Assembly (NCBI GenBank): GCA_030748485.1
Contig: JASMLW010000476.1
Span: forward strand, 1 to 64,000
DNA from: Pirellulaceae bacterium
GTDB taxonomy: Bacteria > Planctomycetota > Planctomycetia > Pirellulales > Pirellulaceae
Direction of reading: 5' to 3'
DNA: 64,000 bases
Part shown: piece by piece, positions 31,720 through 32,419 of the stretch
How the letters are laid out: each line of letters opens with the position of its first letter
How positions within the stretch are numbered: the stretch's first letter is position 1
The notes under the pieces: model-generated
Seen by the model: only the letters and a program-made list of their open reading frames with translations
What the model was told of the DNA's origin: nothing
Databases searched by the model: none
Made by a program: the position numbers and the translations under genes

Positions 31720-32049
31720 AAACCGCCGCCGATCCGCGAACCTCGACGACCACATCAGCTCTATCACTTCAGTATCGGATGCTTTCCAGCAGCGACAGTG
31801 AAAGAGCCAAACAATGCAGTTGTCGACTTTACCGCTGCGAATCGGTTTATCCCGCGGGTCCGAGTTATGGGGACTTGGCGTTGAGCGATTGCGTTGTTGA
31901 GCCGGAGAAGAGCCGACCAAGGCCTAGCCCCGGCGCGACGACGCCGGGGCTTTTTTTATGGCCAGAGGCGAGTCGCTCGCCGCCGACGCAGCACGCGCCT
32001 CGCTGCGCGGCGGCAGCCAATCCCCAATCAGTAGACGTTGCTTCAACGC
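31720..32049. other. Intergenic region with terminator
   Basis: Holds no gene that I can support. Contains one strong rho-independent terminator at 31926-31957, 200 bases after the YHS gene and 92 before the first tRNA gene. Confidence 0.6.
31926..31957 (+). terminator. Rho-independent terminator
   Basis: AGCCCCGGCG and CGCCGGGGCT pair over 10 bases around CGACGA, followed by seven T. Confidence 0.9.
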
Positions 32050-32121
32050 GTGCCCTTGGCCGATCGGCTGAGGCGTCAGGCTTCCAACCTGAATAGGCGG
32101 GTTCGATTCCCGCAGGGCACT
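32050..32121 (+). tRNA. tRNA-Gly (anticodon TCC)
   Basis: Cloverleaf by eye: acceptor GTGCCCT/AGGGCAC, D-stem GCC/GGC with GG in the loop, anticodon stem TCAGG/CCTGA with loop CTTCCAA (TCC), 4-base variable region, T-arm GCGGG-TTCGATT-CCCGC. Discriminator is T, as in bacterial tRNA-Gly. No CCA is encoded. First of three tRNA-like genes within 320 bases. Confidence 0.8.
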
Positions 32122-32203
32122 TCGGGAAGGTCCGAATCGGCGAGTCACACGGCTAGTCCGTTGGCCGCCGGTTCGGCTTTACTCCTCGCGTTTCCCATAC
32201 TTC

Positions 32204-32278
32204 GCCCAGATACGCCAACAGGTAGAGCGGCCTCGGTTTAAACCCGAGGGTCTGCGGGTTCGAATCCTGCTCTGGGTA
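32204..32278 (+). tRNA. tRNA-like gene, anticodon TAA (Leu), short variable region
   Basis: Acceptor GCCCAGA/TCTGGGT (first pair G-T), a 3-bp D-stem GCC/GGC enclosing an unusually long loop with GGTAGA, anticodon stem CTCGG/CCGAG with loop TTTAAAC, 5-base variable region, T-arm GCGGG-TTCGAAT-CCTGC, discriminator A. The anticodon TAA decodes leucine, but tRNA-Leu normally has a long variable arm, absent here. No CCA. Confidence 0.65.
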
Positions 32279-32289
32279 CTGACGAACAC

Positions 32290-32365
32290 GGCGCGGTGCG
32301 CAATCTGGCAAAGCGGCCAAGCTCAAACCTTGGTGATTTTGTGGGTTCGACTCCCACCCGCGCCA
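32290..32365 (+). tRNA. tRNA-like gene, anticodon CAA (Leu), short variable region
   Basis: Acceptor GGCGCGG/CCGCGCC, D-stem CGC/GCG with GG in the loop, anticodon stem CCAAG/CTTGG with loop CTCAAAC, 7-base variable region TGATTTT, T-arm GTGGG-TTCGACT-CCCAC, discriminator A. The leucine anticodon is combined with a class I (short variable arm) body. No CCA encoded. 11 bases after the TAA gene. Confidence 0.7.
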
Positions 32366-32419
32366 CTTGGATCCGATCCGATGGATGATGGATCTATCGA
32401 GATCGGGACCGATCATCTC

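Follow-up and report, generated by a model that had tools for sequence, protein, structure and literature searches.

Why would a bacterium keep, next to each other, two tRNA genes that carry leucine anticodons on bodies without the long variable arm of tRNA-Leu? The question is raised by a 64-kb stretch of Pirellulaceae DNA (the window), in which ARAGORN found exactly three tRNA genes, all on the + strand: an array-type tRNA-Gly(UCC) with U73 (32050..32121), a class I tRNA-Leu(UAA) with a variable region of 5 bases (32204..32279) and a class I tRNA-Leu(CAA) with one of 7 bases (32290..32366).

A trio of genes and a second tRNA set

The Rfam tRNA model (RF00005, gathering score 29) gave the three genes 59.1, 43.7 and 49.7 bits, respectively, with E-values from 5e-6 to 3e-10 over the entire window. 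Since these E-values are low and the order Gly-UCC, Leu-UAA, Leu-CAA is also that of the L073 array of a relative, the trio is more than a chance find. Thus, the three closely spaced genes noticed in an earlier, sequence-only reading are real, and the low covariance-model scores that could have dismissed them were not observed. The heading of that reading names leucine anticodons, as is correct for the second and third genes, and does not mention that the first is a glycine tRNA. The variable regions that it gives, 5 (TAA) and 7 (CAA) bases, agree with our recount, made assuming a five-pair anticodon stem, and neither gene has the long arm of class II. Nor do they fold differently into some non-Leu tRNA: both are normal cloverleaves with Leu anticodons, D stems of 3 pairs and D loops of 10-11 bases. 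Note that each Leu gene shows one departure, an extra base (n=1) 5' of the anticodon stem of Leu(UAA) compared with 37 relatives, and U15 in Leu(CAA). The Gly-UCC gene is 0.89 alike to the Gly-UCC of a relative's array. The trio is flanked by a weak YHS-domain match (below the Pfam cut-off) on one side and a secretin-domain protein on the other, with a class II ribonucleotide reductase gene farther away; its neighbours are ordinary chromosomal genes.

The draft source genome (G000; 8.73 Mb, 95.9% complete, 6.2% contaminated) has 70 Rfam tRNA matches, and ARAGORN was run on the stretches around them. The housekeeping tRNA genes are dispersed and include normal class II Leu genes for TAA, CAA, TAG, CAG and GAG, so the canonical tRNA-Leu genes that the sequence-only reading advised looking for do exist elsewhere in the genome. 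Beside them there is a divergent second set of 37 genes in five places, with 16 genes on contig C638, 14 on C79, 3 on C332, 1 on C579 and 3 in the window. Of these 37, 35 are at least 0.81 alike to an array gene of another planctomycete, the remaining two being a Tyr gene on C79 (0.72) and an unassigned gene on C638 (0.70); the likeness of the G000 genes outside the set to the relatives' array genes is at most 0.80. The second set covers 19 of the 20 amino acids (Cys was not found) and reads 51 of the 61 codons under strict wobble, or 55 if U34 reads four-fold boxes. The window trio provides its sole Gly-UCC, Leu-UAA and Leu-CAA genes. A set distinct from the housekeeping one is what characterizes long tRNA arrays and trn operons, and this is the case in G000; the 20 or more genes in tandem that also mark such arrays are not seen there, as the window has three and the largest pieces 16 and 14. 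Judged by gene likeness and order, the trio is one part of a nearly complete second tRNA set, which in G000 is split; it may be a live or weakened fragment, or a remnant, of an array.

Two further features lie in these pieces. A tRNA with the amber anticodon CTA is present at L026:1075-1149 (G000:C579:5074-5148), close to a Lys gene of the array type; elsewhere in G000 it is most like the place of a Trp tRNA (80%), and none of 59 relatives matches it above about 80% over most of its length. On C638, a frame of 268 aa (L009:2350-3156) lies between Thr-GGU and Leu-GAG; it has a HELGHH motif, looks metallopeptidase-like by eye and had no match in Pfam, PHROGs or NCBIfam.

The relatives carry the set in a more complete form. 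The C638 array had DNA matches in 49 of 60 genomes at E <=0.001, some of which, being weak, may be ordinary tRNAs, and in 32 of the 60 (own genome included) at E <=1e-12. The tRNA genes of the 20 relative stretches, as many as 42 in one stretch, mostly follow a common order, Phe-Glu-Pro-Pro-Ile-Lys ... Arg-Cys, and the L073 array alone reads 61 of 61 codons. In the pooled planctomycete arrays there are 34 Ile-UAU, 43 Arg-GCG and 3 Arg-ACG genes, from which, by established decoding rules, we infer that most of these arrays would need neither lysidine nor inosine at the Ile and Arg boxes. In cyanobacterial and in viral arrays the gene used is Arg-ACG (8 in each group). When an array was compared by BLAST with phage and plasmid records, no match covered more than 4% of the query. 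In six array loci tRNA was the sole Rfam family at gathering scores, and the open-licence literature yielded neither a description of planctomycete tRNA arrays nor a paper on a second tRNA set.

Leucine tRNAs without the long arm

Variable arms were counted in the 20 relative stretches and the loci of the source genome. Short arms were found in 10 of 10 Leu-UAA, 12 of 12 Leu-GAG, 10 of 11 Leu-UAG and, at 7 bases or less, 15 of 17 Leu-CAA genes. The long-armed array genes are Leu-CAG (10/13), Ser (37/37) and Tyr (10/10). Anticodons have been exchanged between the Leu bodies: L074 has a Leu-CAG on a short, UAA-type body, and L088 a Leu-CAA on a long one. The D-arm motif of the array Leu genes was present in 92 stretches of a species-level genome collection and in 12 viral contigs. 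At least five tRNA genes occur in 83 of the 92 stretches (69 planctomycete or unplaced, 12 cyanobacterial, one from Granulicella, one from Plesiocystis) and in 11 of the 12 contigs. In the cyanobacterial array loci the variable region is of 7 bases or less in 42 of 42 Leu genes. Thus, the short-armed genes are not the cell's ordinary tRNA-Leu, for which the class II set is present elsewhere, and they form a second lineage that recurs in cyanobacteria and viral contigs. Since the review PMC9976931 describes the long arm of tRNA-Leu as universal except in animal mitochondria, the class I Leu genes of the arrays are a recurrent exception to this rule in bacteria and viral contigs. Mitochondrial tRNA-Leu likewise lacks the long arm (PMC9976931); the array genes differ in being bacterial and phage genes with well-paired stems, and we do not claim common descent. 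With the variable region removed, the nearest neighbour of the class I Leu genes was a class II Leu in 10 of 50 cases, an SeC-called gene in another 10 of 50, and scattered in the rest, so that no single ancestor emerged.

Are these tRNAs charged with leucine? In E. coli, the leucine identity set comprises A73, A15-U48, G18G19 and A20a, and the long arm is not needed by LeuRS, according to PMC9976931; the variable arm is recognised by SerRS (PMC7609411). Loss of the arm in Leu but not in Ser fits these identity rules. In support of leucine identity, A73, A14, A15-U48 and A20a occur together in 30 of 46 class I Leu genes, with A73 in 46 of 46, and in just 1 of the 294 remaining class I array tRNAs. 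These counts use only loci not chosen by the D-arm motif, because that selection favours A14, A15, GG and A20a, and leave out 40 tRNAs that were not position-mapped, from 334 unique array genes for amino acids other than Leu, Ser and Tyr. Over all planctomycete loci the set is found in 136 of 200 class I Leu genes and 8 of 1043 others, figures that carry this ascertainment bias and leave out 159 of 1202 tRNAs that were not position-mapped. In the window, Leu(UAA) has the full E. coli set and Leu(CAA), with A73 and A20a present, has all but A15. Moreover, when 38 Leu-UAA genes were aligned, 98.2% of 760 cells were paired, 16 of the 20 pairs had changed on both sides, and 0 of 500 shuffles did as well. 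The compensatory changes indicate, at the level of sequence, that the array Leu cloverleaf is kept by selection on structure. Only one G000 gene scored above the LeuRS cut-off.

The sequence-only reading had suggested that these may be orphan or horizontally acquired tRNAs with leucine anticodons, which another synthetase charges or which serve outside translation. The class I bodies, the four class I Leu genes of G000 and the U15 of the window CAA gene are what such an origin would predict. We nevertheless regard it as very improbable: the class I Leu genes carry the bases of leucine identity, anticodons pass between long- and short-armed Leu bodies, and the genes sit within a set for 19-20 amino acids. 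Charging by another synthetase is not supported, given the E. coli identity set and the one genome gene above the LeuRS cut-off, and neither is use outside translation, given the place of the trio in a set covering nearly all amino acids. What is supported of the orphan or foreign origin is a separate, partly exchanged tRNA lineage. The array class I Leu genes look, from their bases, like leucine tRNAs and not like recoders.

Three other candidates were rejected: pseudogenes, on the compensatory changes in the 38-gene alignment; recoding tRNAs, on the distribution of the Leu identity bases; and a second LeuRS, on the one gene above the cut-off.

A leader upstream of the arrays

Among 44 planctomycete loci that begin with Phe and have enough upstream DNA, 41 have a common leader upstream of this first gene, the exceptions being L156, L177 and L183. 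The leader has a terminator in which 97.1% of cells are paired, with both-side changes at 6 of 11 pairs. About 50 bases upstream lies a conserved element, GUGACRCUCGG, that is complementary to the 5' arm of the terminator. The pairing between the two, a candidate antiterminator, holds in 90.0% of cells with both-side changes at 5 of 10 pairs; 9 cells have such changes compared with 2.5 in shuffles, and slid controls pair at most 47%.

A reading frame overlaps this element. A stop codon lies inside it in 41 of 41 leaders (39 UGA, two UAA), and in all 41 the frame leading to it runs for 31 or more codons without another stop, compared with 10/41 and 15/41 for the other two frames. In 34 of the 41 an ATG is present 30 to 46 codons upstream of the stop, giving a frame of ~33 codons. 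The predicted peptide ends in HPLRL in 8 leaders and in variants of it in most others, with Arg at -2 in 34, Leu at -3 in 25 and Pro at -4 in 25 of the 41, and Pro is encoded by all four of its codons. Substitutions in the frame number 373, 430 and 500 at the three codon positions, and single-base codon changes are synonymous in 168 cases and not in 229, so the coding signal may be called modest.

In attenuators of the erm and trp type, translation of a leader-peptide frame decides between two RNA structures. The array leader has the same parts in 41 cases, a terminator, a competing antiterminator and an overlapping frame whose translation would choose the structure; the difference is that it would control a tRNA array. 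We know of no leader that matches this peptide, control of a tRNA operon by a leader peptide was not found in the open-licence literature, and we found the leader to be undescribed.

Counting the training loci, a covariance model of the leader (R1) had matches at E <=1e-5 in 45 of 98 genomes, and in this sense the arrays are patchy among the relatives. Of 30 matched loci examined, 29 have array tRNAs downstream; in the remaining one the match is at the edge of a contig. In G000, R1 found C79 (67 bits, training set), C638 (60.5) and C332 (39), the latter two not in training; these leaders have different N-termini and all end HPLRL-stop. R1 found no leader in 27 loci from cyanobacteria, viruses, Granulicella and Plesiocystis.

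It could be argued that the leader is just a terminator and a boundary, with no ribosome-mediated attenuation. The terminator is indeed stronger and better conserved than the antiterminator, it forms in the minimum-energy folds of all six leaders examined, and the excess of third-position substitutions is small. Against this, the upstream strand is itself conserved and complementary to the terminator arm, it holds a stop codon in all 41 leaders even where this is UAA (two), the frame is open in every one of them, and the three G000 leaders, different at their N-termini, converge on HPLRL-stop. On balance, we find a boundary without attenuation rather unlikely.

Does the window trio have such a leader? 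Three array pieces of G000 have clear ones, the trio just a doubtful one. A strong terminator-like hairpin with a T run (31926..31951, + strand) lies 98 bases before the first tRNA gene. The match to the attenuator leader of intact arrays (31889..31953, +; R1 19.1 bits) and the 28-codon ATG frame that ends in the element (31814..31900, +) are lowered to doubtful because control sites score and frame alike: site 55075 of the window scores 19.7 bits, above the 19.1, and 2 of 3 terminator-like sites in the window have such a frame. A leader of the trio is therefore doubtful, at noise level, and the terminator alone is clear by sequence. No sigma-70-like promoter was found between 31600 and 32700.

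One genome, G014, has 33 weak R1 matches and no array matches; these perhaps represent a repeated terminator-like element.

Gene company, mobility and a possible role

Pfam was run on 90 of the 161 listed or hand-added proteins in or beside 19 array stretches. Among these 90 were five HNH proteins, four Band_7 (slipin) proteins, two TROVE proteins with the Ro60 vWA domain, one RtcB, two integrases and two recombinases. A TROVE gene is present in 19 of 60 relatives and in nine of these 19 is no farther than about 7 kb from array tRNAs (G013, G015, G017, G018, G019, G035, G039, G048 and G054), several of the nine being just past the final Cys gene; the chance of such linkage is 3e-13, a rough estimate made with generous array coverage. 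In G008, TROVE and a lone Cys gene share a 5 kb contig. RtcB is near an array in G057 and G018. In G000 itself the link of TROVE and RtcB to the array fails, because the stretches with these genes hold no tRNA gene.

These gene kinds recall a known system. The founding study of the trn operon of Anabaena reportedly appeared in NAR in 2021. In Anabaena sp. PCC 7120, according to PMC10272220, this operon has 26 genes and a repressor, TrcR, and is induced by translation-targeting antibiotics; loss of TrcR derepresses trn and raises the genes for RtcB 77-fold, slipin 42-fold and an HNH protein 17-fold, and deletion of trn in the trcR mutant left resistance to kasugamycin and BMAA unchanged. The likeness lies in a second set gathered in one array beside dispersed housekeeping tRNAs and in the kinds of partner genes, RtcB, slipin and HNH (PMC10272220); cyanobacteria also have array-type class I Leu genes in 12 array loci. 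Thus, the same gene kinds are tied to second tRNA sets in two phyla, through the regulator in Anabaena and through position in planctomycetes. The systems differ as well. The Anabaena operon is a 26-gene array on a plasmid under a repressor protein (PMC10272220), whereas planctomycete arrays reach 42 genes, lie on chromosomes or large contigs, have a candidate leader attenuator and are linked in cis to TROVE/Ro60; in G000 the array is split. Large-phage tRNA arrays (PMC7824862) likewise bring together numerous tRNAs, RNA ligases and, in some cases, TROVE proteins, and viral contigs share the class I Leu genes; the gene order is different, and the viral loci have no match to the leader. Long tRNA arrays are a known kind, and the arm-less Leu as a regular member, the leader attenuator and the Ro60 linkage in cis were not met in the open-licence literature.

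From the sequence comparisons, we propose that the second tRNA set of Pirellulales-type Planctomycetota, with its candidate leader attenuator, is probably an inducible back-up for translational stress. Ribosomes that finish the leader peptide would cover the antiterminator strand, the terminator would form and the array would stay silent; if translation stalled or failed, the antiterminator would form and the back-up tRNAs would be made. The spare set could then replace tRNAs that anticodon nucleases, toxins or antibiotics had damaged or depleted, its members, divergent in body, escaping the attack or standing in for those destroyed, with Ro60/TROVE, slipin and RtcB as putative repair partners. 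We count against this the departures of the two window Leu genes, the extra base and U15, the noise-level leader of the trio and the promoter search that found nothing, the TROVE and RtcB stretches of G000 that hold no tRNA gene, the patchiness of the arrays, the modest coding signal of the leader frame and the unchanged resistance of the Anabaena trcR mutant after deletion of trn.

The HNH, recombinase and transposase genes beside some arrays fit mobility as well as a back-up. An array that is mainly mobile or phage-derived, spreading by HNH homing and recombination with little gain to the host, would make the window trio a decaying remnant. It would account for the HNH proteins in or beside arrays, whose relatives at about 30% identity are found in cyanobacterial, Granulicella and viral loci, for the integrase and recombinase genes and the IS66 transposase beside arrays, for the several arrays of one genome, G019 (four, two of them nearly alike in gene content), for the class I Leu arrays on viral contigs and for the three genes that are all that remains in the window. 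It sits poorly with tRNAs kept by compensatory changes, with the 19 amino acids still covered in G000 despite the split array, with a leader conserved in 41 of 44 loci and with the linkage of TROVE to arrays, and we consider it improbable as the main explanation.

If the back-up reading is extended to other groups, planctomycetes, cyanobacteria and large phages might have a portable second kit for translation in common, consisting of a near-complete tRNA set whose Leu members are arm-less. In planctomycetes the kit would mostly do without lysidine and inosine (Ile-UAU, Arg-GCG), would be switched on by a leader peptide, as yet undescribed, through which failing ribosomes are sensed, and would team up with Ro60, slipin, RtcB and HNH to restart protein synthesis after tRNA attack. 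We hold this wider proposal with slightly less than even confidence. Should the leader sense translation failure, the purpose of large redundant bacterial and phage tRNA arrays would become testable, and tRNA arrays would be linked to RNA repair by Ro60 and RtcB. The 61-codon locus of L073, moreover, suggests itself as a second tRNA set for translation engineering.

Finally, some genes in or next to the arrays deserve mention. An IS66 transposase (L071:9105-10553) directly follows one of the four G019 arrays, which fits array copying via mobile elements. A protein of ~265 aa with the motif FLCGHDERHWF lies within arrays (L073:10873-11664, L076:5787-6617, L082:8634-9311 and L085:8680-9489) and was matched in 20 of 98 genomes; it had no Pfam, PHROGs, NCBIfam or PADLOC match and no relative in phage or plasmid records. 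Its predicted fold (pLDDT 89.7) had no PDB match at E <=0.001 and, in a viral library, one at 7.6e-5 with a low TM-score. A gene of the 23S rRNA intervening-sequence family (Pfam) occupies an array gap at L078:7812-8168, on the strand opposite to the tRNAs, and similar frames in L076, L082 and L087, also in array gaps and on the opposite strand, cluster with it.
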